Source: a virus. Taken from it: 64,000 nucleotides of DNA. Of this stretch, positions 2,961 to 59,578 are shown one piece after another. Numbering within the stretch: the stretch's first letter is position 1; each line of letters begins with the position of its first letter. Where the stretch lies: positions 1-64,000 of the IMG/VR virus record IMGVR_UViG_3300030328_003618; one strand, given 5' to 3'. The notes beneath the pieces are model-generated. The model saw only the letters and a program-made list of their open reading frames with translations, was not told the DNA's origin and did not search any database. The translations under genes were made by a program, and so were the position numbers.

Positions 2961-4895
2961 TTAATCAAATTTATAATCGTAGGTTGGTGCGTTGCTCGAA
3001 CCTTCAATACCATTAACTGATACAATATTACCATTTACATTTTTAAAATGAGGTATAAACAGTTTATTATCCTCACTATCGTTTTCCCTTGCTTTTACCG
3101 TTCTTAAATTATCAGCATCGTGCATTAAAGCCATACCAAAAGCCATTGCTCTATCCGTATTGGCTGTTCCGTAAACACACAATTCATTTAACAAAGGTAA
3201 GAAGTAAATATCTTCCCAATGTTGTTTTATGTATTCATCTAAAAATTCTGTTACCATTTTCTTTTGGTGCGTCTTCATATGTACACCGTATTTATTTGTT
3301 ACGGTACTATATGGACTATCGGCACTTCTAGGTCTTTCTTTTAAAAATCGAAAAACTTTATTATTGATAAAGAACTTAAAAAAGTTATCGTCGTTATATT
3401 CTACTAATATTTTACTATCGTAAAAGATAGCTAATTTCAAACAGTTTTCATAAAAGGCTTGTTTACTTTCTGGTCTATCGGTATAAAAAGCAACTGGATA
3501 TTCGCCAGGTGTTTCTACTCCAATAAATCTTCTATAAACACACATACATCCTTTTGAGCGTTTATCACCTACCCTACCATTCTTTTTTATCTCTTCTAAA
3601 TCATCGTCAATATGGTAAGGGTCAACTGCTGCTACATCTGCATTTTTTAAATCTATTAATGGCATATCTACAATCTCAAAAGGAAACGGATTATCTTCGG
3701 TATCGTAATCTTCTTTATTCCCAAAATCTTCCACCCATATTGGATAGCTACCAAATATTTCTTTACCGTTTTCATTTTTTTGCCACTCTAATCTTCCTCT
3801 ACGTACTATATCAAACTTATTATTTGTTTTTATGTTCGCTATTTGTTTATTTAATAAGTCTAATCTAAATGGAGAGCCACCCGTTCTAAGAAAAGCATGC
3901 TCTACTTTTAAAGGCATTTCTTGTCTAAAAGCGTATAAGTCAGAAATATCTCCCGATTGTCTTTTCTTTTCTGCTCTGTTTTCAATATCCTTAGTTGCCC
4001 CTTCTACATCAGACTTACCAAACTTAATATCAAAATAACCTGGATATACTTTAGCAGCAGGAATAAACAATGGCTTTAGATTGTACTTATCTGCATTGAT
4101 AAACATTTCCATGTAGTCATCAGATTCTATCTCCATTTGGTTAGAAGTTCCCCCAATGATAGGTGTACCAAACTGAATAGCTCCATCTCTAAAACACTCT
4201 TCGTTTGCTTGATAACCTTTCTTTAGCTTTAGAAATTCACCAGCTTCTTCAAATACCATATAGTTTAATGAAGTACCACGAAAAGCGCCAGGATTGTCCA
4301 TAACACGAAAATGTACCATAGACTTCATTCCTTTATCTACCCATACACCATCTTCTTTTACCTTATATCCAGACATAAGAATATCTTCATTATCACGAAG
4401 AACTTTTGGTCTAAGTTGTTTAGGTAGTTCGTTGTAAGACAACATCATTTTCTTTTTAAAGTCAAGTACGTAGTCTTCCTTTTGAGAGCCTATTCCATTT
4501 TCAGAATGACTATAACAAACCCACTCGTGTAAAAGTAAGTTTGCGTTCATAAATGAAAACCCTTTACGTCTTGCTTTTAAAACAATAAGTCCATACCCAT
4601 TTTCTTTAGCATCGTATACTGCTTGAAAATATTCATGGTCTTGGTCACGATATATAGGAGAAATCATTCCTTTACGCCTAGCGTTGGGTGCTAGTCCATG
4701 TATCTTAGAAAAATTTAGGTAAAAATAATAGTTGCCAGGAATCCATGTTCCCCCCGTTGGCTTATATCCGTTAAGTATTCTTTTTCTTTGTTCTTTCCAG
4801 AAATGAGCATATTCTAAAGTGCCAGGTGTGAACTTCTTATAATTCTTTAAGTTCTTATCAAATATAACAGGCTTATACTTATTTCCTTCAATCAT
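2961..4895 (-). CDS. terL: Terminase large subunit (TerL)
   Basis: The packaging motor: an ATPase that pumps DNA into the prohead, with a nuclease that cuts the concatemer. Visible motifs in 644 residues are a variant Walker A (LKARRKGFS, about 106-114), Walker B with catalytic acids (YMVFEEAGE, about 212-220), a coupling motif GGTSN (about 248-252), and a C-terminal RNase H-like nuclease with Asp at about 425 (AAVDPYHID) and Glu at about 499 (LVEYN). Its start overlaps the stop of the preceding gene by one base, so the two are translationally coupled. The arrangement TerL then portal is that of crAss-like and many other tailed phages. Confidence 0.93.
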   Translation of the reverse strand: MIEGNKYKPVIFDKNLKNYKKFTPGTLEYAHFWKEQRKRILNGYKPTGGTWIPGNYYFYLNFSKIHGLAPNARRKGMISPIYRDQDHEYFQAVYDAKENGYGLIVLKARRKGFSFMNANLLLHEWVCYSHSENGIGSQKEDYVLDFKKKMMLSYNELPKQLRPKVLRDNEDILMSGYKVKEDGVWVDKGMKSMVHFRVMDNPGAFRGTSLNYMVFEEAGEFLKLKKGYQANEECFRDGAIQFGTPIIGGTSNQMEIESDDYMEMFINADKYNLKPLFIPAAKVYPGYFDIKFGKSDVEGATKDIENRAEKKRQSGDISDLYAFRQEMPLKVEHAFLRTGGSPFRLDLLNKQIANIKTNNKFDIVRRGRLEWQKNENGKEIFGSYPIWVEDFGNKEDYDTEDNPFPFEIVDMPLIDLKNADVAAVDPYHIDDDLEEIKKNGRVGDKRSKGCMCVYRRFIGVETPGEYPVAFYTDRPESKQAFYENCLKLAIFYDSKILVEYNDDNFFKFFINNKVFRFLKERPRSADSPYSTVTNKYGVHMKTHQKKMVTEFLDEYIKQHWEDIYFLPLLNELCVYGTANTDRAMAFGMALMHDADNLRTVKARENDSEDNKLFIPHFKNVNGNIVSVNGIEGSSNAPTYDYKFD

Positions 4896-15520: not shown

Positions 15521-15537
15521 AGATCGTTCTTTGATAC

Positions 15538-15584
15538 GGTGAGGAAAGACACATTCGCAAAATTATTTCCTCACCTTTTTTTTT
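15538..15584 (+). terminator. Strong intrinsic terminator before the cassette array
   Basis: Perfect 10-bp stem GGTGAGGAAA / TTTCCTCACC followed by nine T. It ends the operon 14144-15520, so the cassette array beyond needs its own promoter or read-through. Confidence 0.9.
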
Positions 15585-15639
15585 ACAACGATTAGTATAA
15601 GCACATACCCGATAGGGTTGGGTTTATACCTTGTTAGCT
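15583..15639 (+). repeat. attC-like site a
   Basis: Left core TTACAAC (15583-15589), stem GTATAA...TTATAC, right core GTTAGCT (15633-15639). It lies just after the terminator and so marks the start of the array. Confidence 0.6.
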
Positions 15640-15682
15640 GACGAAGTGAACTGTTTAAAAATTTAAAAAACAAAATATTATT

Positions 15683-15898
15683 ATGGACAATTATTTAAAA
15701 GACTTAGAAGAAATGAGCGAGCGAGGTGCAGACTTTGCTGAATACTACCACAAATTACTTGATGGTGTAAAAGACCTACAAGACAATCAAAGAGCAATGT
15801 TTGTTTGGGTTTTGATGAACAAAATTAGAGAAATTGGTTATGAGAACGGAAATAGAGCGACAAAAGAAGCTATGATTAAATTTTTAAATTGCAGCTAA
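15683..15898 (+). CDS. Cassette gene 1, hypothetical
   Basis: A 71-residue helical, acidic protein (LEEMSERGADFAEYYHKLLDGVKDL). Function unknown. Its TAA stop is part of the left core of attC-like site b, a typical cassette arrangement. Confidence 0.65.
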   Translation: MDNYLKDLEEMSERGADFAEYYHKLLDGVKDLQDNQRAMFVWVLMNKIREIGYENGNRATKEAMIKFLNCS

Positions 15899-15951
15899 CG
15901 TATTGTATAAAATGCGTTGAGGAACGAAATGAATTTTATATGGTGTTATGC
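15893..15951 (+). repeat. attC-like site b
   Basis: Left core AGCTAAC (15893-15899), stem TATAAAAT / ATTTTATA, right core GTTATGC (15945-15951). The loop contains GAGGAACGA, shared with site c. Confidence 0.7.
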
Positions 15952-15975
15952 ACCTTTAATTTAAAACTAATTAAA

Positions 15976-16173
15976 ATGAAAAAAAGAGAACTATATAAAT
16001 TAGAATTTGTAAAAAACACTGACAACAAATGTATAGCTGTAATCAGAACTGATAATAATTACGGATTGCAAGGTTATGTTTATTCTGATGGTAGAATAAG
16101 AAAAGATTACACACCTTACACTATACCAAACTACATAGTAGAGGAATGTATGGGTATGTTTAATGGTGCATAA
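15976..16173 (+). CDS. Cassette gene 2, hypothetical
   Basis: A 65-residue basic protein (MKKRELYKLEFVKN...). The start at 15976 follows TAATTAAA, the leader type used by neighbouring genes; a longer frame from 15889 would run through attC-like site b and is rejected. Function unknown. Its stop lies within the next core. Confidence 0.65.
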   Translation: MKKRELYKLEFVKNTDNKCIAVIRTDNNYGLQGYVYSDGRIRKDYTPYTIPNYIVEECMGMFNGA

Positions 16174-16228
16174 CGGTTTGGCTATGTGCTGAACGAGGAA
16201 CGAGTATAGCATATAGCTAGTGTTATAT
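16168..16228 (+). repeat. attC-like site c
   Basis: Left core GCATAAC (16168-16174), stem GCTATGTGCT / AGCATATAGC (10 bp with one G-T), right core GTTATAT (16222-16228) followed by GC, so the outer ends GCATAAC and GTTATATGC are nearly complementary. The loop has GAGGAACGA. Confidence 0.75.
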
Positions 16229-16259
16229 GCTTTTTATTAACAGATTAAAACAGATTAAA

Positions 16260-16457
16260 ATGAGATTTATAGCTTCGATAAAATGGTTAGATAACGGAAA
16301 CATACAAGATGATATGATTCTAAAAATTGGGGACATAGAAGAAGACGATGACGACATTTTCTTCTACTTAGATTCTGAAAGAGAATTGGAAGAATTTAAA
16401 AAAGAGGGTGTTCACGATTGGATTATTCTTGATGCAGTTAAAGATAGTTGCATATAA
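16260..16457 (+). CDS. Cassette gene 3, acidic hypothetical
   Basis: A 65-residue strongly acidic protein with a GDIEEDDDDIFFYLD core. The start at 16260 follows ACAGATTAAA twice; the upstream in-frame ATG overlaps the attC-like right core and is rejected. Function unknown. A DNA mimic is conceivable from the charge only. Confidence 0.65.
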   Translation: MRFIASIKWLDNGNIQDDMILKIGDIEEDDDDIFFYLDSERELEEFKKEGVHDWIILDAVKDSCI

Positions 16458-16546
16458 CGGATGAGTATATAAATAGTGGCGACTAAACGCAAAGATAGAT
16501 GATGGCACTAACGATGCCGAGCCATTATTTATATACATTGTTAGGC
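16452..16546 (+). repeat. attC-like site d (longest stem)
   Basis: Left core ATATAAC (16452-16458), 16-bp stem GTATATAAATAGTGGC / GCCATTATTTATATAC with one wobble, right core GTTAGGC (16540-16546), which fits the GTTRRRY consensus exactly. The 40-base loop holds a second small hairpin (TGGC/GCCG). Confidence 0.8.
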
Positions 16547-16566
16547 ATCTTTTAAACTTATTAGAT

Positions 16567-16728
16567 ATGTATTTTGTAAACCATTATGTTATTGATTGGA
16601 CTAAAGTAAAAACACAAGAAGATGTAATTGCTATTTTAAAAAACCTACAATTAGCATTTGAAAACCCCTCTGAAGATTTAGAGAAACTTTGTGTTTTGGT
16701 AAATAAGCAGACAGGTGAAAAAGTTTAA
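16567..16728 (+). CDS. Cassette gene 4, hypothetical (53 aa)
   Basis: A 53-residue protein, MYFVNHYVIDWTKVKTQ..., ending KQTGEKV. It begins 20 bases after the right core of site d, the typical cassette spacing. Function unknown. Confidence 0.6.
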   Translation: MYFVNHYVIDWTKVKTQEDVIAILKNLQLAFENPSEDLEKLCVLVNKQTGEKV

Positions 16729-16732
16729 TTGT

Positions 16733-16784
16733 GCCTAATGGTATAAGCAAATACCGTTTAAATGGAATTTAATTAATGTTATAA
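16733..16784 (+). repeat. attC-like site e (degenerate)
   Basis: GCCTAAT (16733-16739; a canonical core would be GCCTAAC), a short GGTAT/ATACC hairpin, and GTTATAA (16778-16784). The stem is much weaker than in sites b-d. Confidence 0.4.
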
Positions 16785-16795
16785 AAAGTAAAATT

Positions 16796-16975
16796 ATGGA
16801 ACCAGAGGAAAAAAGAATGTTAAGAACAATGAGATATATGGCTTGGGAAAGAGCCAAAGGAGAGTTAAGGAGTATGTTAGAAACCTATTGGCACGATAAT
16901 GATAAATATGGCATAATGAAAGAAGCCATAGATGAATTTATTGATGATGTTCAAGGTCACGCAAAGCAAGAATAA
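16796..16975 (+). CDS. Cassette gene 5, hypothetical (59 aa)
   Basis: A 59-residue helical protein (MEPEEKRMLRTMRYMAWERA...). Function unknown. It starts 11 bases after the candidate right core of site e. Confidence 0.6.
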   Translation: MEPEEKRMLRTMRYMAWERAKGELRSMLETYWHDNDKYGIMKEAIDEFIDDVQGHAKQE

Positions 16976-16984
16976 TTTTATTGT

Positions 16985-17014
16985 TTATAACGCTACAACT
17001 AAACACAGTTATTT
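16985..17014 (+). repeat. attC-like site f (truncated)
   Basis: TTATAAC (16985-16991) and GTTATTT (17008-17014) only 16 bases apart with no real internal stem. Possibly a deleted site. Confidence 0.3.
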
Positions 17015-17030
17015 TTAAAGATTTATTAAG

Positions 17031-17297
17031 ATGAAAAGACCAAAACAAACAGATAAAGAATGTAGAAGGCAAGGAATGACAGATGTTCCAGTTGCTAATT
17101 ACTCTAAAATGCAGGATAAGTATATTGATTACTTAGAAAAGAAACTTAAAAATAATGGTGTTTTAGATGATGTTATTAAACACCGTGAACTGTTAATTGG
17201 TTTTTATAGGCATTTCTATTCTGAAATAGGATGGATAACACATGAGGATTCAGCTATTGAAACAATTGATAAATACTTAAAATCAATTAATGGTTAA
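17031..17297 (+). CDS. Cassette gene 6, hypothetical
   Basis: An 88-residue basic, helical protein with KECRRQGMTDVPVANYSKMQDKY. Phage-like in character but not recognised. The palindrome after it is poor, so the boundary to the next gene is unclear. Confidence 0.6.
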   Translation: MKRPKQTDKECRRQGMTDVPVANYSKMQDKYIDYLEKKLKNNGVLDDVIKHRELLIGFYRHFYSEIGWITHEDSAIETIDKYLKSING

Positions 17298-17340
17298 TAA
17301 TGGTAAGGCTATGATTAGTGCCATTTAAAATAAATAAATT

Positions 17341-17661
17341 ATGGAATACGAACTAAAAAGAATAGAAGCACCAAAAATTGAGGGTATGGATGAAATGGCA
17401 TTAAATATAGCCAATGTTACCCAACGTTTTATTTCTGAGGTGCAAAAACAAGAAGAGGAACTATTTACAACTGCTTTACGAACTATGGCAGAACCTCCAA
17501 TAAAAGGTGAAATAACGAAGGGAAAAATAAGGTGGAGAGGAATTAGAATAATAAGGCAACAAATAGGACTTGACTCTTATAGTTGGTTAGAGCAAAGAGG
17601 TAAACAAATAAGTCCTAAATTTCACATAGGAGCAAAGTTGCCTGACTTAAATGTTGGGTAA
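17341..17661 (+). CDS. Cassette gene 7, hypothetical
   Basis: A 106-residue protein: an N-terminal helical part and a basic C-terminal part with GKIRWRGIRIIRQQIGL. Function unknown. Its stop TAA lies in the left core of site h. Confidence 0.65.
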   Translation: MEYELKRIEAPKIEGMDEMALNIANVTQRFISEVQKQEEELFTTALRTMAEPPIKGEITKGKIRWRGIRIIRQQIGLDSYSWLEQRGKQISPKFHIGAKLPDLNVG

Positions 17662-17721
17662 CGCCCCTTGTATGGTGGCGTATGGAATGCAATGAAATAT
17701 GCACTATACAAATTGTTGTGT
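17656..17721 (+). repeat. attC-like site h
   Basis: Left core GGGTAAC (17656-17662), stem TTGTATGGTG-GCGTAT / ATATGC-AC-T-ATACAA with minor bulges, right core GTTGTGT (17715-17721). Confidence 0.7.
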
Positions 17722-17757
17722 GTAGTGTGGATTATTAACAGATAAAAACTAATTGAA

Positions 17758-17934
17758 ATGAAAAAGTACATTCTAAAAGAATTAAAATACGGTTCTTATT
17801 TTCTTGATTTAAAAATGGGATGGGGTGAAGATATAAATTTAGCTTTATTTTTTGATAGCGTTGAAGATGCTGAACGAGAGATGGAAAAACAATCAAGCGG
17901 TATTTATACTGTTATAACTATTTACATGAAATAG
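17758..17934 (+). CDS. Cassette gene 8, hypothetical (58 aa)
   Basis: A 58-residue protein with DLKMGWGEDINLALFFDSVE and a hydrophobic beta end (YTVITIYMK). Function unknown. It is bracketed by attC-like sites h and i. Confidence 0.6.
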   Translation: MKKYILKELKYGSYFLDLKMGWGEDINLALFFDSVEDAEREMEKQSSGIYTVITIYMK

Positions 17935-17940
17935 CATTAC

Positions 17941-17992
17941 ACACAACGGTTTGAGTATGGAGCGTTTTAATGCTCTATACTTAGTGTTATGT
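17941..17992 (+). repeat. attC-like site i
   Basis: Left core ACACAAC (17941-17947), stem AGTATGGAGC / GCTCTATACT (10 bp with one G-T wobble), right core GTTATGT (17986-17992). Confidence 0.7.
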
Positions 17993-18012
17993 ACTTTTAA
18001 TATAAGGAATAT

Positions 18013-18210
18013 ATGAAAGCAAGAGATTTAATAAAAGAATTGGAAAAACACCCAGATTGGGAAGTTACGGTAAGCGTTGATATTTCAACAAATGAGGATG
18101 AAAATGATAGACGAGCATTTGGTGAGCAAATAATAGAAGTTATAAATGAAAATAGTAGTAACCAATTTACTATATGTTTTGATGGTTATGATAACTATAA
18201 TTGTACATAA
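18013..18210 (+). CDS. Cassette gene 9, phage-like hypothetical
   Basis: A 65-residue acidic protein, MKARDLIKELEKHPDWEVTVSVD..., a pattern (helix, then a strand with V-V-D) seen in many small phage proteins of unknown role. The stop TAA is part of the left core of site j. Confidence 0.65.
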   Translation: MKARDLIKELEKHPDWEVTVSVDISTNEDENDRRAFGEQIIEVINENSSNQFTICFDGYDNYNCT

Positions 18211-18274
18211 CATCCTTGTAAACGAGCTTGAGCGACAGTCGAGGTACGAGATTGCGTTTACAATACTGTTATAT
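18205..18274 (+). repeat. attC-like site j
   Basis: Left core ACATAAC (18205-18211), perfect 9-bp stem TTGTAAACG / CGTTTACAA, right core GTTATAT (18268-18274). The loop has GAGGTACGA, close to the GAGGAACGA of sites b and c. It is the last site; the P-II operon begins 80 bases further on. Confidence 0.75.
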
Positions 18275-18353: not shown

Positions 18354-18692
18354 ATGAAAAAAGTTGAAACCATCATCAGAAAATCTCAATTCGATGATGT
18401 GAAATCGGCTCTCATGAACGTTAAGGTAACTTTCTTTAGTTATTGGGACGTGACTGGTGTCGGTAATGAGAAAATTGGTAACGTCTACAGAGGTGTTGAG
18501 TACAATACATCTGATATTCAAAGACGATACCTATCAATAGTTGTATCTGATGAATTTTTAGATAGAACTGTAAAAGCTATTCTTGATTCTGCTTATACTG
18601 GCAAAGTTGGAGATGGTAAAATATTTGTAAGTGATATCCAAGAAGCATATCGCATCAGAACTCGTGAAAGAGGAAACCAAACGCTTAATTAA
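18354..18692 (+). CDS. glnK: Nitrogen regulatory protein P-II (GlnB/GlnK family)
   Basis: A 112-residue P-II signal protein. P-II trimers bind ATP/ADP and 2-oxoglutarate and, through the T-loop, plug or release AmtB. Visible features are the N-terminal strand MKKVETIIRK, a T-loop with NVYRGVEY (Tyr50 corresponds to the uridylylated Tyr51 of enteric P-II), and the C-terminal signature YTGKVGDGKIF (81-91) followed by YRIRTRERG. The T-loop reads GVGNEK where enteric proteins have GFGRQK, so the ligand-binding Gln is Glu; YNTSDIQRR after the loop is, as I recall it, typical of Bacteroidetes P-II. It is followed by amtB after one base, the widespread glnK-amtB arrangement. A phage copy is very unusual. 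Confidence 0.93.
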   Translation: MKKVETIIRKSQFDDVKSALMNVKVTFFSYWDVTGVGNEKIGNVYRGVEYNTSDIQRRYLSIVVSDEFLDRTVKAILDSAYTGKVGDGKIFVSDIQEAYRIRTRERGNQTLN

Positions 18693-18693
18693 T

Positions 18694-19920
18694 ATGGAAA
18701 TGTTAACGGTAAACAACGTATGGATGATGATATGCACTGGATTAGTGTTTTTCATGCACCTTGGTTTTTCATTCTTAGAGATTGGATTAACTAGACAAAA
18801 GAATACTATCAATATTTTATTCAAGAACATCTTCATAATTTGTATGGGGCTTCTTGTTTATTACATTGGTGGTTTTAACCTAATGTATCCTGGATTTTCT
18901 GAAGGGGATTTAGGTATCTTAAAGTTTGCAGGATTTGGAATTGATGCTCCTGTAAATGGTATGACTGCTGAATACGCTAGTGGAGGATATACTTGGTGGA
19001 CAGATTTCTTGTTTCAAGGTATGTTTGCAGCTACTGCTGCAACTATTGTAAGTGGAGCTGTAGCAGAACGTATCAAGCTAACGAGCTTCATGCTATTTAG
19101 TTTTATCTATGTAGGATTTGTATACCCTATAGTAGGTAGCTGGAAATGGGGAGGAGGATTCTTAGATAGTCTAGGATTCTACGACTTCGCAGGTTCTACA
19201 TTAGTACATTCAGTCGGTGGATGGGCTGCTTTAGTAGCTGTATGGTTACTTGGAGCTAGATTAGGTAAGTTTAATAAAGGCAAAGCTATTCCAATATTTG
19301 GTCATAACATTCCTTTTGCTACGGCAGGAGTATTAATATTGTGGCTAGGTTGGTTTGGTTTTAATGGAGGGAGTGTACTTAGTGCAGACCCTACATTAAC
19401 TAGTTTAACTTTAGTAACAACTTGCTTAGCCGCTGCCGCAGGAGGAATAGGGGCTGCTATTACATCTTATATTAAAGATAGTAGTTTTGACTTATCCATG
19501 TTCTTAAATGGAATCTTAGGAGGTCTTGTAGCTATTACAGCAGGAGCAGACCAAATGAGTCCTAATGAATCTGTAGTAATAGGATTAATTGGAGGTATAC
19601 TTGTAGTTCTTGTTGTAAATCTGTTAGACAAACTTAAATTAGATGATCCGGTAGGAGCTATTGCAGTTCACTTAGGTTGTGGAATTTGGGGAACTTTAGC
19701 TGTAGGTATCTTTGGTAACATGGCAGGATTCAATCAGTTCCTAACACAGCTTTCAGGAGTTTGCATAATTGGAGCTTTCTGCTTAATCTCTTCATTCATA
19801 ATTCTTTTTATCATTAAGAAGACTATGGGGCTTAGAGTTTCTAGAGAAGAAGAACTTGAAGGACTAGACACAGCAGAACATAAAATGTCAGCTTATCCTG
19901 ACTTTAGACTTAAATCTTAA
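18694..19920 (+). CDS. amtB: Ammonium transporter AmtB
   Basis: A 408-residue inner-membrane Amt/Mep/Rh channel that takes up ammonium. It has about eleven hydrophobic spans. The conserved pore residues are present: Asp164 in YDFAGSTLVH, the twin histidines His172 (STLVHSVGG) and His326 (AIAVHLGCG), and the GWFGFNGGS segment (about 219-227). Length is normal and the C-terminal tail is complete, so it looks functional. I start at 18694, directly after the P-II stop; a longer frame from 18631 overlaps P-II and adds no membrane segment. P-II upstream and porin downstream suggest regulated ammonium uptake during infection. Confidence 0.96.
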   Translation: MEMLTVNNVWMMICTGLVFFMHLGFSFLEIGLTRQKNTINILFKNIFIICMGLLVYYIGGFNLMYPGFSEGDLGILKFAGFGIDAPVNGMTAEYASGGYTWWTDFLFQGMFAATAATIVSGAVAERIKLTSFMLFSFIYVGFVYPIVGSWKWGGGFLDSLGFYDFAGSTLVHSVGGWAALVAVWLLGARLGKFNKGKAIPIFGHNIPFATAGVLILWLGWFGFNGGSVLSADPTLTSLTLVTTCLAAAAGGIGAAITSYIKDSSFDLSMFLNGILGGLVAITAGADQMSPNESVVIGLIGGILVVLVVNLLDKLKLDDPVGAIAVHLGCGIWGTLAVGIFGNMAGFNQFLTQLSGVCIIGAFCLISSFIILFIIKKTMGLRVSREEELEGLDTAEHKMSAYPDFRLKS

Positions 19921-53800: not shown

Positions 53801-55271
53801 TTTGTTTTTTCTTTAAGGCTTTATCTAAAGCTAATTTTATATCATCTCTGTTTTTTGTTTTATCACGTATTACATCATCTGCAACAAGATTAAACAAACT
53901 TTCATTTCCAATATTTCTTTCGCCAGGGTACGCTCTTAGTTTCATACCAGCCATACCACCACCGATAATACCACCAAGTATACCAGCAAATACGCTATTA
54001 GTAAAAGTGCTTTTAGAGTCTTTACCATCAGTAAAAAAACCACCAAAAGAATCAGATTCTAAATCAAAAACTTCTTTACCAAATTTTCCTTTCCCTTCCG
54101 TAGCTTTTTCATCAGCAAAGATTTCATCATACATTTGTTTAGCACCTTCCTCAATATATGTTTGAGAAAACTCTTGACCAAACTCTATTGCAGCACCTTC
54201 AAACAAATCTATACCTCTTAATGCTTTAGTATAATTAGGTAAGAAAGAATCCATTAATTGTTTAGGAGACTTTCTAGCCGCACCTTTAAATGTTTTTTTA
54301 GAAGCAGCTTTTACTATTTGTTTCTGAATACTTCTTGCTGGTATTTTACCAATCCATTCTAATGCCGCACCTTCTGTTAAAGAAACTAAAGAAGCAACTC
54401 CTAATGAAAATCTTGCAGCACTAGTAGGGTCTAAGCCTGCTTCTCTTGCTTCATCTTGAACCATGTTATACATCATGGTTGTACCACCAATAAAACTTCC
54501 CATACGGGCAGAGTTTTTAATTGATTTTTCAGAAAGTTTTTTAATTTTATTTAGGTTAAGCCTCATGCTTTTTTCTACAGCATCATCAACTTTACCAACT
54601 ATTCCTTCATTAAACTTTGGTGTCTTTTTTACTACTTTACCAGTTTTACTTTTATTAAATATGTTTTTAACTGCATCATCAATAGCATATCTAGCTTTAG
54701 CACCAGCTTTATAGGCATCACTTGTTCCTTCAATAAGTTTTTCACCTCTTGCTATTGCTCTGCTACCTTTTGAAAGCATTTGACCTGCTTTAGCAAACTT
54801 GGCAATACCCGCAACAAATCCAATTCCATTTCCTAATCCAGCCCAAAAATGAGAAGATGTAATATCTCCAAATTCTTTTATTGGTTTATAGTAATCATCT
54901 GAATATATGTATTCAAAATTTTCTGATACTTTGTTAACGTTTTCAATCCAATCATTTGCAAACTCTGTTTCATGTATTGCATTAGAAATTGTAGGTAATA
55001 GATTAAATGCACCTTCTACTGTACCAACAACAAAGCTATTCCAAAAACCAGATGCAGCATCATATAACGCTCCTTGGTCAAACTCTACATCGGTATCAAT
55101 TTCTTTTTGTTGCCTTATACCAGGATTATAAGGGTCTATTGTTTCTTGTATATTACTAAGATTTTTAGATACGTTATCTAAATTAAAATTTTGATCTAAA
55201 TTAGATAATGCTTCCTTGTGTAGTTCAGGATTAAATTGTCTTTCGTTTTCAGAAGTTGGGTTTTCTGGCAT
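44853..55271 (-). CDS. Giant virion RNA polymerase polyprotein (3472 aa)
   Basis: A 3472-residue protein. From the N-terminus there are Gly/Ala-rich hydrophobic stretches (about 40-440); a Lys/Glu-rich, low-complexity linker (about 690-1120); a zincin motif HEFAH (1195-1199); and a long helical region. The RNA polymerase part has GVRVPASDAISTINARVVGFIE then KSDADHDGDKVFIYKPD, whose DADHDGD (2538-2544) matches the Mg-binding DxDxD loop of two-barrel polymerases and crAss-like virion polymerases. About 110 residues later an ADP-ribosyltransferase-like segment appears (FYKGAKKGL, then FGSGIYLTSNEEYANQF, about 2650-2700), followed by more polymerase-like sequence. It would be packaged, injected and transcribe early genes. 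Confidence 0.85.
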   Translation of the reverse strand: MPENPTSENERQFNPELHKEALSNLDQNFNLDNVSKNLSNIQETIDPYNPGIRQQKEIDTDVEFDQGALYDAASGFWNSFVVGTVEGAFNLLPTISNAIHETEFANDWIENVNKVSENFEYIYSDDYYKPIKEFGDITSSHFWAGLGNGIGFVAGIAKFAKAGQMLSKGSRAIARGEKLIEGTSDAYKAGAKARYAIDDAVKNIFNKSKTGKVVKKTPKFNEGIVGKVDDAVEKSMRLNLNKIKKLSEKSIKNSARMGSFIGGTTMMYNMVQDEAREAGLDPTSAARFSLGVASLVSLTEGAALEWIGKIPARSIQKQIVKAASKKTFKGAARKSPKQLMDSFLPNYTKALRGIDLFEGAAIEFGQEFSQTYIEEGAKQMYDEIFADEKATEGKGKFGKEVFDLESDSFGGFFTDGKDSKSTFTNSVFAGILGGIIGGGMAGMKLRAYPGERNIGNESLFNLVADDVIRDKTKNRDDIKLALDKALKKKQITQSDYKVTGEIIDEMAEFVDQQKVVSAINDPVAQYQLFNLNRAFKNIQSKIVTDEEVREKSGDIIDAQVEESVKLNQEKNSLFKTLIDAIRVNYSEILELRKPETLNANEFSDKVLAYQAIAEKIVGGAITTQEDLNQEIDKVYKTDFKEKVSKAKKEGRLAGEITEEEYQEFKEGNVSQERVNYLASKIIDEQDFTEREQEMADALKTEVEEAKEKMLKEKEKEKKEEKPKEKKTEKTETFDAFKYREGLKSLTAEELAQEKENLENKENKDSNKKEKLSAIEMQEFSNELKNPTKEKKEEGKKEEKKESKPTEETKEPTTYRTNTSLKQAINDKSITEDDIRETYNQALSDIKNKKNRRSASVIKNEIEKRAEKDERFSNAIKPKKDEKTEGSKETDKDSKEETKPEAKQEEKIEEVEVEEIKPTTKETTDIVKIEKETSVEVLREYDNAEINAIAKNSNNEAVEGLGQLISKDVKEVEGGKAEQEVYQYGVIQRITSEDGSKIQRVTDHYGKVYGIPIINLTMDAKEAGFFFDGKKEFSLTQKQITDFFNSKFGKPKTEEDVVEETKEDVGDSNLTGDNTVSGDETPSTINQQDKLDEKKNQKNQKEAEDRKDQIKSFRRKKGKEKKQRKGILSKAAESQKIADNLQLYQKIKEHFKKMFPMIPVSTVDILFDKYGVEILGKVSQEGITISNEAFQSTLAHEFAHVYIDLIADKKIVSLALDWIKGTKFFTNAQKAYSNDTVQTQAMEALVQAMSENAIPKLEEKLSKNQITKWLSIAKKLWRTIKRMFTGYSPSNYIDYLSDSLVFNSKPIMVETSYLEGIEKYERKALDTTDANFNNEFLLNYIKKFTINALFFRDTSFQAQNILGDIKEIFSEELAEGDAQTNKLNYKYNLLKEENNKFDGVNFNDLSYLDQTEILLNETIYEDGITYKQHINNVVEYLVHLPTEQIDEIEINKSIKENEKSESEKGKIEKEAIKGSKKMITSVNALLARLINSQGQMIHNDEAYAYLTNAAMKSSTTEELMSRIAEDSKKGNNEVPLALYNTLLALQEYDEQFGTDSLQTVLHQSLSNQSIPQKAILIKKDKEGLKEIQIRDVSQSNKRKSRTLNLKLRLTSAPFLASPIVGTEEDQGKKKSIAELLKQLINRKERSMYGFGFTDKLLRFELNEVNRLGNVLFDVNGEFHVEEYTNWLINDEQNLNKKNDKGKLTKRAKALQDIANEIDVKKRQNLSIKFFMSDILNTAAEQLTKDKNPENKRYKGKFAEDKGRVNTLMNFASQMYDGSIQNANMFINSSGNTVSTIRFGSALNRIFADISNRGRFAKEKNNSKVKTKDGDVYLFRDNPVFNSIYQTGIFKWAIDDAVNYFGDSVKEHSALSGIDLFISQFMFFSNDQDRSRYYQKVMINDRSHSNYIQVDRLDNDAIKNRLNEQRRVDQYHLNQGYKKLKNEEQKKKYLEEWNKLSYNFAYDVDGEVVVKSFDPIYLKAETDEKLDSQLEKNNLSEIEKKGIKKKVSAIKKETSILKKVLTKVGLLDTVQKDHVGKDGKYKTIDEMILSYVLNERVNRLAINDILSEPVATRLIKKGKVDKSNILKRNSGFDSTGLRVDLSDKKTMTVVYEMNDKDGNPISDSFLWRSKGMTEAIQKQLGDKQLDPISYNSKDGEYMINNKGENIYHKNSSVNYFGDEENNNIVEMAKAMMGDNYEESNFYRIAKMLEMLEEKYGDTHYIQIIDKDAIKGSKADIKAMKVEELYNAVSENDFDKIKNSKYEYVSQNFYIPFNENKEAKELNRQFAKLSTQGVKIWTNNSDQENALNESKQLEEKIIEYIWEQMGLEEGEDNYLNSREFDKLFNTEEILNELLKKVDDLQDPDTSELLKDIIKYNKKEGKILDRARRNKKRLEAIENRTPEQQEDLDEAQSVLDNKKTINKIDHPAMTPQLKQVILSRLQSKGLDVRVPGAYLKMVPDMDNRLKENEIILPYSMFGQGEEAKKQAEKFLKEQNEKGGLFVPGVRVPASDAISTINARVVGFIEGDANIAILPHSFTIKSDADHDGDKVFIYKPDVRVKDGKTVINENSKANEIYKIINRLSQSQDYKQRIEDGTINLDEFEKFVEEIDEELKQGETEGEADVKEGVDEIFKQTPELAEIGTERQYSAYLNSVFPNNKIFYKGAKKGLSKFNYSESLQKERGNKFGSGIYLTSNEEYANQFAQKNDGKKYTVLVDNSNVVSFKNKVAFLQAISKTTVPTAEQIDEYVKNLQKENKILYIEKSGVTDELVIGNENQYQILGSKEDVQAFKDFVSKKTSKKTEGLPSKFDFASSSEMSATDARMSFGETAVGILAVAGKLNSALYQANTRFREETEITIDGVTYNLNGVGVNEYDKTSNDLAMLLQGALDMASNPILLRSGIDGRNINVVVAMLIGGIPLKTVIKFINKKEVKSYYTQDQFENNAYTEKANKNKFEKTLSKEIEKQKEDSEERNNLETLQYFSQLSQELNAVTSIVQLDGDLPNDGYLLRDLKKVFNTIKSEESKTKLNYNNYSQKPFVRHYEKLVDAAIGLMSHHFITENQNYYKEIEAIQNSRNYSDVREYDPSVEKRRVDDLFSLMISQNLLDESQIADILENGVTTIIEDLKDTVLESIEYSYKQITGDATVTDYVNEKIETIKGKAKTTARNNYSLLFKYLKEDINIDGAKTNLGAYIENVLTENENDIEKVNQFLQKNTELEIGKGPKKNLKKLVDTVKDYKDFKEIKSIESLETNEKANNKFIKLLQLRNVVDPITDVSESVLSGKQDIRFLTSTQKQIAKRDFEKLSYQEQNRFLAYQLFKYGLSNKLGSIISIMPNSYTLEYLKEISNIKSRGEKEKKVYDLKQFRLAQSYNDLNYPIKKYKKNVFLEEEGKSLYAFIENKYGPPNAIKGADGVRFTIEGDENLYQFKKVEGTGRSEVIKIKSFAAERKLDYIVFNNEETVNLEDAEDLKKRCKIIKN

Positions 55272-55304
55272 TTTCTTTTTTTTTGTATAAACAAATATAA
55301 TATC

Positions 55305-56915
55305 TTATTGATAACCGTATTTAGATAAACTATAATTTACTAACTCTTCAGCTTCTTGCTGTGTATATGGTTGATTAGTATTAGGATTAATTTGCCTTAT
55401 AGTATTAGATACCATTTGTTGAAATATTTGTTCGTTGTTTATCATATCTCCTTGATTGGTATTTCCTGGCTCATAAGCTTGAACATTAGTACCTATGTTT
55501 CTAAATTTAGCATGTTCAGCAGCAAACCCTTTATCTTTTACTAAATTTTCAACGTTAATGTAAACATAACCAGTATATCCAGGTATTTCTTCAATTTCTG
55601 TTTTTTCATCATCATTAATAAAAGGTCTATATTTTACGCCTTCTTGCCAGTTTCTTCTGTTGTACGTATCTTTAAAATTGTATTGGTCAGCAATAGCTTC
55701 TGGATAAAAAACTTTAGCTTTTATAAAAGATTCTACATTTCCGTTGTCTGGATTTGTTAAAGCTAATTTCTGTATTAAATTAACGGTAGCACCTCTTAAA
55801 TCATACTTTCCTTTATTATCTTCTACATCATCTTCACTTCTGTTTCCATAATGCATATCATAAACTTTTGGATTAGTATTATTTAACCATTCTGTAAAAA
55901 ATTTAGTATCACGTGGAGTCATTGGCTTTGCAGCACCTAAAGCATTAGGACTTGCGTTTGGTCCTTCGGTTGGCATCATTTCGCCAGGTTGTTGTTTTAA
56001 TTTATCATATGTAGTTCCTAAAGTATTTGTAATTTGTGTTTTGCTTGAACCTTTACCTTTACCTTTTCCTCTACTTTGATTGTATTGTATTTTTGATTTA
56101 AGAAATTCTAAATCATATGGATTCATAGCATTCCATTTCATAGCTGTTTCTGGACTTCCAGCATGTTGCTTTCCATATTTATTAGCCATTTCATTAGCTT
56201 GTTCCTCGCTAGTTCCAGTTGAAATTAAATAATCGTATACATTTTTTTCTGTAACAATGTTATCTGCTGACCAAGGCTTTAAAGGGTCTTTAAAGTTCTT
56301 TTTAAAGAACTGTGGATTTATACTCCCTTTCTTTTCAATCATACCTACTTGTATTCTATCTAACAAACCTCTTTTACGCAAAGCCATTTGTTCTTCCATA
56401 CTTAGTCTTTTTCTTTCCCTAACTATTTCACCATCTTTCATTTTAGGATTTCCTTTGCTATCAAATACGGGAACATCAATTTCTGCTTTACCTACAAACA
56501 TATCCTTTTGTTTAGCATCAATATACTGTGCGTATTGAGCTTTATTAGATACAGCGTTCTTCATTTCGCTAGAAGTTAAGATACTTCTTTTATACTCTCC
56601 TAAATCAGTTAAGCCACCAGAAGAAACATATTTTTTTAAATCACCATTAAACTTAGTAATTCCTTTTATAATATTCATTCTTGCTCTTTGCTCAACTTCT
56701 TCAAGTGCTTTTTGGTCTTCTGGCAAAACATCAAACTGCGCCATTAAATCTAATTGCTCTTGTATACCAGCTTCGGCTTGCATTTGAGCAGCTAACTGTT
56801 TTTCAGAACGTTGCTCCATTCGTTCTAACATCATTAAGTTAGAAGCCTTGTCTTGACGTTTTTGAGCCCAATTATCTGTTCCTGATAATGCAGCGTATAA
56901 TCCGAAATCTCCCAT
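55305..56915 (-). CDS. Internal virion protein
   Basis: A 536-residue, charged, mostly helical protein (Gln/Glu/Met-rich helices over the first 100 residues, and SRGKGKGKGSSK at about 280). Not recognised. It lies between the 883-aa and 3472-aa proteins, the place of internal cargo proteins in crAss-like phages. Confidence 0.6.
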   Translation of the reverse strand: MGDFGLYAALSGTDNWAQKRQDKASNLMMLERMEQRSEKQLAAQMQAEAGIQEQLDLMAQFDVLPEDQKALEEVEQRARMNIIKGITKFNGDLKKYVSSGGLTDLGEYKRSILTSSEMKNAVSNKAQYAQYIDAKQKDMFVGKAEIDVPVFDSKGNPKMKDGEIVRERKRLSMEEQMALRKRGLLDRIQVGMIEKKGSINPQFFKKNFKDPLKPWSADNIVTEKNVYDYLISTGTSEEQANEMANKYGKQHAGSPETAMKWNAMNPYDLEFLKSKIQYNQSRGKGKGKGSSKTQITNTLGTTYDKLKQQPGEMMPTEGPNASPNALGAAKPMTPRDTKFFTEWLNNTNPKVYDMHYGNRSEDDVEDNKGKYDLRGATVNLIQKLALTNPDNGNVESFIKAKVFYPEAIADQYNFKDTYNRRNWQEGVKYRPFINDDEKTEIEEIPGYTGYVYINVENLVKDKGFAAEHAKFRNIGTNVQAYEPGNTNQGDMINNEQIFQQMVSNTIRQINPNTNQPYTQQEAEELVNYSLSKYGYQ

Positions 56916-56926
56916 TGTATCTTATT

Positions 56927-59578
56927 TTATTGATTGTTAGCTTTATTTAATTCATCTTCTATCTTTGCTTTTCTATCCTTTAAAGTATCTGTTGCTTTAT
57001 CTACTTGAAATTGTTGAGCCATTTTTAAAGCATGAGTATTATATTGCTTTCCTTTTAGCATCTCTCTTGATAATTCATCATATATACTTCCTTTTCCGTA
57101 TTGCTTTTCAAACATTGAACGCTCATGTATGTTTTTCATTTTATCACGAACAAGTTGAGCACCCATTTCTTTGTTCAACATAGCAACTTTAAAGCTATCT
57201 TCAAATTTTCTTCTATTTAAAGTTTCATCAGCACTTGCCGCTCTATCAAACCTTTGTTGATTCATTCTACGAACTCCCGAATCTTCTGCAGCTATTTGAG
57301 CATATCTATTCTGTAAAGTTCCAGCAGCCCTACCTAAGTTTCCTAAAGCAACACCCGAAGAACCACCAGACAACCTTCTAATGTTTTTTACGTCATAACC
57401 AAATCCACGTTCAGCTAATTGTTTACGTAATCCCATCTCTTTACCAGTAAGCCCCATGTTTCTTTGCCTATATGCTTCGTCTGTATAAGCATTAAACATT
57501 GCTCCTTTCTGATACTCTGGCACTTCTTCCATAGCTCCTTTAAGACCTATCATTCCCATGCCAATATCTCCTGCTGTAGCAATTAAATTACCGTATTTAT
57601 CTCCACTATCTAACATAGATAAATCAGGCGTAAACTCTTCTAATTTTTTAGCGTTGTTTAACTGTTTATCTATTTCAGCTAATTGTTCGTTTAAATAGTC
57701 TTTGTCTATATAGTCATCACCTTCTGTATCATAATCTACATCTGTTTCAGCCATATCATTAGGGTCTGGCTGTTTTGTGTTATCAATTGTAATTTCTTGA
57801 TTTACAATTTTGCTTGTGTCAGAAGTTCCAGTATCTGCAGTAGCTTTTTTATCTAACTCAGTTTGTTGTAAACTTAAATCATAGTCTTTAAAAGAATCTA
57901 ACTCTTTTATTTTATTAAATTCTTTTTCAAGGTTTGCAAAATCTTGAAAGCGTTCTCTTTGTTGAGGACTTCTGTAATCATCGCCAGCTTTAACAGAAAC
58001 ACCTCTTCCTGCATAACCTCCAATAGGTACGTTTTTTCTGATTTCTTTAACTTTTTCAGCAAAGTTGTTTTGAGCATTTTCTATTGAAGCTAATTTAGAT
58101 TCTGTTGCTTTTACTTGTTCCCTAAGCTTTTTTTGATCTTCGGGTTTAGCTGTTAAAATTTCAGAATTTAATTTATTTAATTTATTTTCAGCAAAGACTT
58201 TTGCGTTTTCGATGTTTTGTTCTATAAATGGTATTCTAGCTTTATTTTCATAAACCTCTCCTATAACATCATGGTCTTTATCTTCTTGATATAAATCGTT
58301 TTCTGATTGTTCAAATATTTGCCTTGCCTTTTCAACAGACTCTTTAGTTACACCTTCTTTTTTAATTATATTTTCAATTTCATCAGTGTATAATCTAGTC
58401 TTGTCTTTTATATTAGAAGTTTGAACAGAACCGTCTTCACCTATTTTTATTTTTTTATATGAATTAGATATTCTTTTTTCTTCAACAGTTTTTGTATCTC
58501 CTTTTTTAAGAACATTAACTGCTTTACGTTCACTAGCAACAACATATTGATTATCTCCAATAGTAACAACATTAATACTTTCTTTAAAAGGATATTGAGA
58601 TTTATTATAAGTGCCAAGCAATCTATCTCTTTCGTCTCCGTCTTTATTTGTTGTTTTTAAATAAGCCACCCATTTTTTATCATCAGTAGAACTTCTTATG
58701 TCAAAGTTAGGTTCAGCATCTAAATTAGTTTTATTGCTACCTGAAATATAAGTAGATGGGTCTATATGAGTTTCTAATTGTGTACCTACATCTCCCGTAA
58801 ATACTCTATATTTAATGTGAGGACCTGTACCAGAACCAGAACCTACTCCGTATCCACCTAAATCATCACCTCTTTTTACTCTCTTCCCGATTATGTTTTT
58901 TTGTTCTTCAGGAGTCATAGCATCTAAGTGCATATATTGCGACCTCGTACCATCATCGTTTTTAATTATAAGATAATAACCACCCGATTGTTCTTTGTCT
59001 GTACCTACTAACGTTGGAGAACCATCTAAAGAAGCTACTTCTACAACACCATCTGTTAAAGATATAACCCTGTCATTATCAGTAGTCATATCTATTCCTT
59101 TAGAATGTTGTCCTTCTCTATTTTTAAAATCTTTACCTCTTACACCGTAACCATCTGTAATATTTATAGTCCTATCTCCTATAGTAACTTTTTGTTGTTT
59201 TTTTAAAGTTTTTCCTTTTGCCATATTCGTAGACTTAAAAATTTCATATTTATTTTTATCAGGCTCTTCTTTAAATGTATAAATTTTACCCGTTTCTTTA
59301 TTTCTATAAGCTTTGTATCCAGCTTTTATATCACCTTCAATAGCCATTTTAAATGTAGGGTGATTTTCTTTTTTTAATATCTCTCCCGTTTGAGGATTTC
59401 TACTAAAAGCGTGATAAGCACCATCAGTTTCTTTAGGTTGAGAATAATCAAACTCTTCTGGTTTTCCTAAAGCCTCCCAATAACCCCTTAAATTATAAGT
59501 TTCTTCATTTGTATTTTTTATATTATCAGGAAGAGTTTCTTTAAACTTTTTAAACTTAATATCATCACTATTTGGCAT
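56927..59578 (-). CDS. Virion protein with M23-like peptidase domain (altered site)
   Basis: An 883-residue protein. About residues 130-280 form a LytM/M23 peptidase-like domain: GQHSKGIDM (His and Asp ligands), YMHLD, and GTGPHIKYRV. In active M23 enzymes the last motif is HxH; here the second His is Lys, so zinc binding may be lost. The remainder is helical and charged, with Arg-rich segments near the C-terminus (YKQRN-like), as in internal virion proteins. A cell-wall role at entry is plausible; activity is doubtful. Confidence 0.7.
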   Translation of the reverse strand: MPNSDDIKFKKFKETLPDNIKNTNEETYNLRGYWEALGKPEEFDYSQPKETDGAYHAFSRNPQTGEILKKENHPTFKMAIEGDIKAGYKAYRNKETGKIYTFKEEPDKNKYEIFKSTNMAKGKTLKKQQKVTIGDRTINITDGYGVRGKDFKNREGQHSKGIDMTTDNDRVISLTDGVVEVASLDGSPTLVGTDKEQSGGYYLIIKNDDGTRSQYMHLDAMTPEEQKNIIGKRVKRGDDLGGYGVGSGSGTGPHIKYRVFTGDVGTQLETHIDPSTYISGSNKTNLDAEPNFDIRSSTDDKKWVAYLKTTNKDGDERDRLLGTYNKSQYPFKESINVVTIGDNQYVVASERKAVNVLKKGDTKTVEEKRISNSYKKIKIGEDGSVQTSNIKDKTRLYTDEIENIIKKEGVTKESVEKARQIFEQSENDLYQEDKDHDVIGEVYENKARIPFIEQNIENAKVFAENKLNKLNSEILTAKPEDQKKLREQVKATESKLASIENAQNNFAEKVKEIRKNVPIGGYAGRGVSVKAGDDYRSPQQRERFQDFANLEKEFNKIKELDSFKDYDLSLQQTELDKKATADTGTSDTSKIVNQEITIDNTKQPDPNDMAETDVDYDTEGDDYIDKDYLNEQLAEIDKQLNNAKKLEEFTPDLSMLDSGDKYGNLIATAGDIGMGMIGLKGAMEEVPEYQKGAMFNAYTDEAYRQRNMGLTGKEMGLRKQLAERGFGYDVKNIRRLSGGSSGVALGNLGRAAGTLQNRYAQIAAEDSGVRRMNQQRFDRAASADETLNRRKFEDSFKVAMLNKEMGAQLVRDKMKNIHERSMFEKQYGKGSIYDELSREMLKGKQYNTHALKMAQQFQVDKATDTLKDRKAKIEDELNKANNQ

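Follow-up and report, generated by a model that had tools for sequence, protein, structure and literature searches.

The cassette array

Between positions 15587 and 18270 the window, by which we mean the whole stretch of 64,000 nucleotides that was analysed, holds an array of nine cassettes with ten hairpin sites. A portal protein and a large terminase were identified in the window and the virus record extends to 70.7 kb, which upholds the placement of the array inside a phage genome by an earlier note on this DNA; the phage is a marine one. Nine open reading frames of 53–106 amino acids occupy the + strand (15683–18210), with hairpins bounded by AAC or AAT and by GTT between them; every one of the short same-strand genes and intervening hairpins described in that note was found, and the arrangement exceeds chance in a permutation test. 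The array starts at AAC 15587–15589, directly 3' of a terminator-like hairpin, and, as had also been noted, stops just before a nitrogen-uptake (P-II/Amt) operon. A search for relatives of Amt retrieved 80 viral sequences, the closest at 85–92% identity. The features are as follows.

15530..15586, + strand: terminator-like hairpin with T-run, left flank of the array (read from sequence)
15587..15635, + strand: site a (AAC 15587–15589 ... GTT 15633–15635); folding sense -7.9, antisense -4.2 kcal/mol
15589..15898, + strand: cassette 1 (site a body and ORF 15683–15898, 71 aa); ends GTTAGCTG / CAGCTAAC
15897..15947, + strand: site b; 84% identity to a Polaribacter phage P12002S site
15899..16173, + strand: cassette 2 (ORF 15976–16173, 65 aa); ends GTTATGCACC / GGTGCATAAC
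16172..16224, + strand: site c; fits family consensus AACGGTTTGnnTATG...TATAnnnnnTGTT
16174..16457, + strand: cassette 3 (ORF 16260–16457, 65 aa); ends GTTATATGC / GCATATAAC
16456..16542, + strand: site d
16458..16738, + strand: cassette 4 (ORF 16567–16728, 53 aa); ends GTTAGGCA / TGCCTAAT; weak PHROG 9119 match
16737..16780, + strand: site e (AAT core); shared with L026 and L008, where the genes on either side differ
16739..16990, + strand: cassette 5 (ORF 16796–16975, 59 aa); ends GTTATAAA / TTTATAAC
16989..17174, + strand: site f, long, loop contains the start of ORF 6; arms also in L094
16991..17300, + strand: cassette 6 (ORF 17031–17297, 88 aa); ends GTTATTAA / TTAATAAT
17299..17418, + strand: site g, long, loop contains the start of ORF 7; common to L094
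17301..17661, + strand: cassette 7 (ORF 17341–17661, 106 aa); ends GTTACCCAAC / GTTGGGTAAC
17660..17717, + strand: site h
17662..17946, + strand: cassette 8 (ORF 17758–17934, 58 aa); ends GTTGTGTGTA / TACACACAAC
17945..17988, + strand: site i; fits family consensus
17947..18210, + strand: cassette 9 (ORF 18013–18210, 65 aa); ends GTTATGTAC / GTACATAAC
18209..18270, + strand: site j, constant last site (putative anchor, attI-like role); kept with its right flank in relatives
18354..18692, + strand: P-II nitrogen regulator, flanking phage gene outside the array
18679..19920, + strand: ammonium transporter Amt, flanking phage gene (from translation)

The hairpins listed earlier are all present, but sites f and g are long, with right arms inside coding sequence; a reading of these two as degenerate was dropped once their right cores had been located there. 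The loop motif proposed to be shared (GAGGAACGA-like) is restricted to sites b, c and j. The site bodies are varied, and the consensus fit is poor for e and f. Nearly all of the cassette proteins lack a Pfam or PHROG assignment above noise, and an Rfam search of the array region gave no match.

Complementarity of the cassette ends

In all nine cassettes the GTT word at the start is the exact reverse complement of the AAC- or AAT-ending word at the end of the same cassette. The complementary lengths for cassettes 1–9 are 8, 10, 9, 8, 8, 8, 10, 10 and 9 nt; their sum of 80 was reached in none of 200,000 permutations, and the mean match of other pairings is 4.1. The two halves of one and the same site are complementary over just 3–5 nt. 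Complementarity of the cassette ends, not of the cores of a single site, is a mark of integron cassettes. In the broad sense, then, these are integron cassettes, with mutually complementary terminal cores in nine of nine, and the sites are integron sites, being imperfect hairpins with AAC/GTT cores and a variable centre.

The property extends to other arrays. Complementarity of at least 5 nt was found in 26 of 49 neighbouring pairs from independent arrays (1.3% at random), and two further independent sets gave 14 of 20 with at least 4 nt (against 5.6%) and 14 of 25 (against 4.9%). A detector that combines the consensus with a stem returned 237 sites, compared with three in reversed sequence. 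A detector relying on complementary GTT/AAC words alone was dropped, as in this AT-rich DNA the reversed null was as high as the real count. Strict matches to the long site occur in 56 of the 121 Flavobacteriaceae genomes sampled.

Cassette exchange among related phages

Two cassettes of the window are present in other phages at 93–96% identity, with flanks of only 51–63%: cassette 7 recurs in L094 at 96.2% (flanks there 53–55%) and cassette 9 in L132 (93%) and L127 (94%). L026 is collinear with the window to 15582 (85%) and carries a different array beyond this point, while L094 and L098, whose flanks are 98.9–99.3% identical, have different arrays. In relatives site j stays together with the right flank, and the genes that precede it vary. 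The number of cassettes at one locus ranges from none in L025, where site j alone represents an empty site, to one in L007 and two in L008; L019, L022 and L004 also differ.

The phage isolates Freya_1–10 have arrays that end at an attI-like point adjoining an integrase of about 270 amino acids. Freya_9 and Freya_10 differ by one 307 bp cassette, at AAC|ACCCC adjoining the integrase; they are 100% identical across 9,407 nt upstream and the junctions have only 3 bp ('AAC') in common. The pairs Freya_5/6 and Freya_1/2 show a similar cassette difference beside the integrase. The comparison of related genomes that the earlier note had called for thus reveals exact single-cassette changes at the cores, both in relatives of the window phage and in the Freya isolates.

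Position of the junctions and polarity

The note had placed the breakpoints at the G|TT of the right cores, and this was our first reading also. It was overturned by the comparison of L025 with L008, by the ends of the alignments, which favour AAC over GTT (25:3 for starts, 26:4 for ends), and by the Freya isolates: the breaks lie within the left core (R''), at AA|C. Because the junctions are here, a cassette consists of a site and its downstream gene, the reverse of the classical integron cassette, and, since the hairpin moves with the downstream gene, the polarity is opposite to that of classical integrons. The proposal of an integron-type cassette array therefore stands with regard to the attC-like sites and the missing integrase, but not with regard to the classical cassette orientation.

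The predicted folding of the window sites is more stable for the sense strand in nine of ten, with one tie. The stem score of the detector favours sense-strand G-T pairs, a possible bias, and hence the strand test was redone with a criterion that treats both strands alike, on sites defined by pattern; the sense strand was predicted to be the more stable in 95 of 102. The spacers are asymmetric, the left being longer, as in the orientation of classical attC sites.

We considered whether the array could be a classical integron cluster, with attC sites recognized on the bottom strand by a host IntI, crossover at G|TT of R' and each attC body, 3' of its gene, travelling with that upstream gene. 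The cores are arranged alike, the cassette ends are complementary in the same way, the spacer asymmetry fits, and in E. coli IntI1 acts on attC sites of a Polaribacter phage (PMC9892861); for P12002L_attC2 it recombines the bottom strand but not the top one (strand names as used by Qi et al., which may or may not follow gene direction at this site; PMC9892861). This is not the situation at the AA|C junctions, where the body lies 5' of the gene and goes with it, nor in the Freya pairs, and the predicted folding preference for the sense strand points away from it. With the evidence from the recombinases, given below, we regard this explanation as very improbable.

Recombinases associated with the sites

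No tyrosine recombinase was found in the phage of the window when the 70.7 kb record was searched for Pfam Phage_integrase (PF00589) and for the recombinase of the family, and the integrase reported missing from the window is missing from the whole record. With ten tandem attC-like sites and no such match, the array has the make-up of a CALIN.

In flavobacterial chromosomes the matching arrays are convergent with a dedicated recombinase of about 375 amino acids. All 40 of 40 sites converge on its 3' side, and site density there is 12.9 versus 0.56 per 100 kb (23-fold). A second recombinase group adjoins the phage arrays; here all sites are on the same strand and nearly all lie upstream. In phages with a recombinase the cassettes end at an AAC just 5' of the integrase start, after which a conserved TATATA-rich stretch follows in most cases; the insertion point is a few dozen bases from the start codon. 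An attI-like point beside an integrase is present in these phages and not in the window.

The IntI-specific insertion, described as essential (PMC8138268), is absent from all of the aligned phage and chromosomal recombinases. Their TIGR02249 matches are split and below the cut-off, and none of 301 Flavobacteriaceae genomes has a match above the IntI cut-off. The chromosomal recombinases exceed the cut-off of NF040815, which is also the best-scoring family for the phage recombinases, although below its cut-off. Viral recombinases with visible arrays are not a single clade separate from those without (12 changes), in part because the detector misses sites; we do not claim a single origin.

A different enzyme or route might move the cassettes, the link to the recombinases being incidental. 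HUH/RAYT-type single-strand transposition, the machinery of group II introns or slippage during replication of the hairpins come to mind, given that hairpins suit single-strand mechanisms and that the recombinase reaction is a predicted one. The orientation rule and the enrichment at one recombinase family, the second group beside the phage arrays and the proximity of the insertion point to the integrase start codon make such a route very improbable, and a 3 bp AAC overlap suits exchange at the core by a tyrosine recombinase. That the hairpins are ordinary terminators or repeats between the genes of a phage operon, which homologous recombination has shuffled, is hardly credible, for all that the DNA is AT-rich, the genes short, the hairpins close to stop codons and phage mosaicism common, in view of exact complementarity between cassette ends across a span of 120–270 bp, the only 3 bp that the Freya_9/10 junctions have in common and the near absence of sites from reversed sequence.

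Our preferred explanation is that this is a mobile cassette array of an integron-like system common to Bacteroidota and their phages, which we hold to be very probable. In this model a hairpin site and the one small gene after it make up a cassette (C-body-GTT-gene-TAA). The folded gene-sense strand, the putative substrate, would be nicked by a tyrosine recombinase within the left core, at AA^C, and cassettes would be joined head to tail. The entry point for new cassettes would be a constant site where the array ends on its 3' side, either the attI beside an integrase or, here, the last hairpin, site j. The recombinase may have been lost from the window phage or never present, for which reason an enzyme of the host or of a co-infecting phage would have to move this array in trans. 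As the phage has no such recombinase, we infer the mobility of its array from relatives. The cargo may benefit the phage.

Relation to known integrons

Qi et al. (2023; PMC9892861) described clusters of attC sites without an integrase (CALINs) in virulent phages, among them Polaribacter phage P12002L. There is thus a precedent for an arrangement that the earlier note had considered very unusual in a phage. Those clusters resemble the window array in being integrase-less, attC-like and filled with small genes, and P12002S, the sister phage of P12002L, has a homologue of site b. With nine cassettes the window array is long by comparison. Qi et al. (2023) reported no dedicated Bacteroidota recombinase, reversed polarity or natural gain and loss; these three appear to be new with respect to the literature searched, bioRxiv excluded.

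With classical integrons (IntI, attI and attC; class 1 and Vibrio chromosomal) the present system shares a tyrosine recombinase, an attI-like point next to the integrase, sites that form hairpins, cassette ends with circular complementarity and one small gene per cassette. It differs in the position of the crossover, which, read along the gene, is the AA|C in the left core, in the hairpin 5' of the gene, in genes that face the integrase end and in a recombinase without the IntI insertion. In the IntegronFinder 2.0 survey Bacteroidota integrons, earlier just In0, came to include one complete example, from Salinibacter ruber (PMC9024848). The present site family, from the same phylum, is common in the sampled Flavobacteriaceae. 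Since the recombinase scores under the IntI cut-off, surveys based on IntI would be expected to miss the system, and NF040815 (XerA-like / 'site-specific tyrosine recombinase/integron integrase') is a generic family with no cassette function attached.

Implications

Integrons are commonly viewed as bacterial devices based on one integrase family, IntI. Our data point to a second integron design, which abounds in one of the major marine phyla and is found in complete form in its phages. We consider it likely that this is a separate integron class of Bacteroidota and their phages, with a non-IntI (XerA-like) recombinase and reversed cassettes in which the hairpin precedes the gene and the genes face attI. 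Phages with complete versions would then exchange small genes, those for counter-defence among them, within a bloom, and many of the 'temperate-phage' integrases of flavophages would be cassette integrases. We examined ten large cassette genes of phage arrays, and five of these clearly encode DNA methyltransferases.

Near-identical phage isolates of one bloom differ by single cassettes, and phages would in this way gain a site-specific route for exchanging small genes. An isolated phage–host pair makes the origin of the cassettes, the strand that recombines and the need for an IntI-type insertion testable. For Freya- and Danklef-like phages, the reading of an integrase as the sign of a temperate life style would change.

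Cassette array and flanking genes

The array comprises nine cassettes, each bearing a single + strand ORF of 53-106 aa, and ten hairpin recombination sites (a-j). A terminator-like hairpin immediately precedes it, and the P-II and Amt genes follow; the earlier note had likewise placed the end of the array before a nitrogen-uptake operon. The features discussed are as follows.

15587-18270, ORFs on the + strand, cassette array
17298-17663, + strand ORF, cassette 7
17945-18211, + strand ORF, cassette 9
18354-19920, P-II and ammonium transporter operon

The virus record containing the window is 70.7 kb in length and carries genes for a portal, a large terminase and a DnaB-like helicase; the window is therefore phage DNA. 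The ORFs at 17031-17297 and 17341-17661 begin within the loop of the site that belongs to the same cassette, as does that at 3844-4089 of Freya_10, an isolated Polaribacter phage, so that in these cases the coding sequence takes in the right arm and core. The P-II/ammonium transporter operon is present in many marine viral contigs (the window; L001-L029), often with a variable array as genomic neighbour.

Terminal complementarity

If a cassette was once circular then its start core must complement its end core. This provides our strongest test against chance and is independent of hairpin scoring. In all nine window cassettes the two are complementary over 8-10 nt, GTT/AAC triplet included; for example, GTTATGCACC at 15945 complements GGTGCATAAC at 16165-16174 and GTTATGTAC at 17986 complements GTACATAAC at 18203-18211. 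The two cores within one window site match over 3-5 nt only. None of 200,000 permutations reached the complementarity sum observed for the nine cassettes. In independently collected arrays 26 of 49 neighbouring pairs display complementarity of at least 5 nt (random, 1.3%), and in chromosomal arrays found via the recombinase 14 of 20 display at least 4 nt (random, 5.6%); for phage arrays found via a recombinase the figure is 14 of 25 (random, 4.9%).

Identical ends (GTTATAAA ... ATTGTTTATAAC) enclose unrelated genes in cassettes at 16739-16990 of the window and in viral contigs L008 (7531-7751 and 7790-7988) and L026 (4565-4774); window cassette 1 and Polaribacter phage P12002S give a similar comparison. 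Such cassettes may be informative about cassette formation.

Cassette exchange and polarity

Cassette 7 has a 96.2% identical copy in phage contig L094, and cassette 9 has copies of 93-94% identity in L132 and L127. The 150 nt on each side of the cassettes common to other phages are 51-63% identical in a forced alignment, about the level of unrelated sequence. Among phages with a related P-II/Amt region, the conserved flanks enclose no cassette (L025), one (L007), two (L008) or other cassette sets (L019, L022 and L004), and in L094 and L098 flanks of 98.9-99.3% identity surround different arrays. These alignments show cassettes that are, as judged by sequence, common to different phages.

In every compared case the conserved left flank runs as far as ...AAC or ...AAT, and the final hairpin remains with the right flank. 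Over all alignments, AAC outnumbers GTT by 25:3 at the starts and 26:4 at the ends, contrary to the G|TT breakpoints that the earlier note had anticipated. Each hairpin therefore goes with the gene downstream of it, and exchange takes place at AA|C. The classical integron has the opposite arrangement, with exchange at G|TT and each hairpin downstream of its gene.

Folding favours the gene-sense strand at nine of the ten window sites (the tenth is a tie) and at 95 of 102 sites defined by pattern. The advantage comes largely from a G-T wobble that is conserved after TAT in 79 of the 102. Better sense-strand folding is consistent with this being the recombined strand.

A candidate recombinase

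The window phage encodes no recombinase. Among 301 flavobacterial genomes searched with a model of IntI, the classical integron integrase, none gave a match above the cut-off. Below it, the best matches were to a recombinase about 375-400 aa long, frequently located at contig ends; in draft Flavobacteriaceae genomes it lies less than 1 kb from a contig end unusually often, a position expected where repetitive arrays interrupt assembly. We compared 20 regions around this recombinase with 20 random regions of the same genome set. Site density was 12.9 per 100 kb against 0.56, and all 40 sites near the recombinase were on the opposite strand and on its 3' side. The catalytic R-K-H-R-H-Y residues are invariant in this chromosomal family.

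Searching viral contigs with the chromosomal family identified phage contigs that encode a relative of about 267 aa, neighboured by phage replication genes. The sites detected in 19 such contigs are always on the strand of the recombinase and nearly all upstream. Their arrays typically stop at an AAC, a few dozen bases short of the recombinase start codon, and a conserved TATATA-rich stretch often comes next. Both recombinase groups score below the IntI cut-off, fall outside the IntI branch of an unrooted tree and, in an alignment, lack the IntI-specific insertion that IntI1 and two further IntI proteins contain.

Freya_1-10, North Sea Polaribacter phages isolated on one host strain, carry a 271-aa member of the family, annotated `integrase', at the end of a cassette array. 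A single 307-bp cassette, sitting precisely at AAC|ACCCCTATAAC ahead of this gene, distinguishes Freya_9 from Freya_10; over the 9,407 nt upstream the two match perfectly. Other pairs diverge at the same point, Freya_5 from Freya_6 by 472 bp and Freya_1 from Freya_2 by two cassettes totalling 842 bp. Every insert begins C-body-GTT and finishes ...AA. Freya_8 is without a 902-bp internal block and has AAC at the junction. Homologous recombination is excluded for the Freya_9/10 pair, since the junctions have only 3 bp (AAC) in common. The sequences show cassettes entering at the array 3' end, beside the integrase, and the gene is probably a cassette integrase. The authors describing the isolates (Freya_1-10 and Danklef_1-5; MT732458-MT732472) took it as evidence of a temperate lifestyle, with no mention of integrons or cassettes (PMC8776804). 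The Danklef isolates likewise vary in length (47.2-48.2 kb); over the second half of the integrase region used as query, they share 99.6%.

Distribution of the site family

Sites c and i fit AACGGTTTGnnTATG...TATAnnnnnTGTT. Pattern scans gave matches both in viral contigs and in bacterial genomes; many of those listed for the genomes are in Bacteroidota, and some of those listed in other phyla resemble chance. A detector built from the sites and pattern matches identified 237 sites across the loci under study and three in the reversed sequences. Of 121 genomes sampled from one flavobacterial family, 56 contain a strict long-site pattern; the reversed control gave just a few matches. One genome, G054, has 88 strict long sites, and its large arrays lie at about 53,854-58,344, 1,553,074-1,566,239 and 3,130,159-3,142,517 of C1, two of them convergent with IntI-like recombinase matches; these arrays are superintegron-like.

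Relation to integrons and probable mechanism

The window array is an integron-like cassette array, resembling the attC clusters without integrase (CALIN). The suggestion of such an array in a phage is upheld. We do not class it as a classical integron, since two of the traits that define one were looked for and not found: G|TT crossover with the site body 3' of the gene, and the IntI-specific insertion. Phage carriage, thought very unusual in the earlier note, has precedent, as integrase-less attC clusters are reported in virulent phages, including one in a Polaribacter phage, and were partly tested with IntI1 (Qi et al., 2023; PMC9892861). In Bacteroidetes, IntegronFinder 2.0 placed a complete integron only in Salinibacter ruber (PMC9024848). 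In the journal articles searched, we found no description of the recombinase, the polarity or natural cassette exchange, and these may be new.

We envisage that the sense strand of a site folds and would be nicked at AA^C by a tyrosine recombinase. The window array, which has no integrase of its own, would probably be acted on in trans by an enzyme from the host or a co-infecting phage, and site j would stand in for attI.

DNA methyltransferase-like genes are frequent phage-cassette cargo (L004 6038-6661, L019 2847-3451; L128, L164, L215, L227, L416 and L134). Of ten larger cassette genes from phage arrays, Pfam clearly identifies five as DNA methyltransferases and weakly matches a sixth, which suggests a counter-defence role for part of the cargo.
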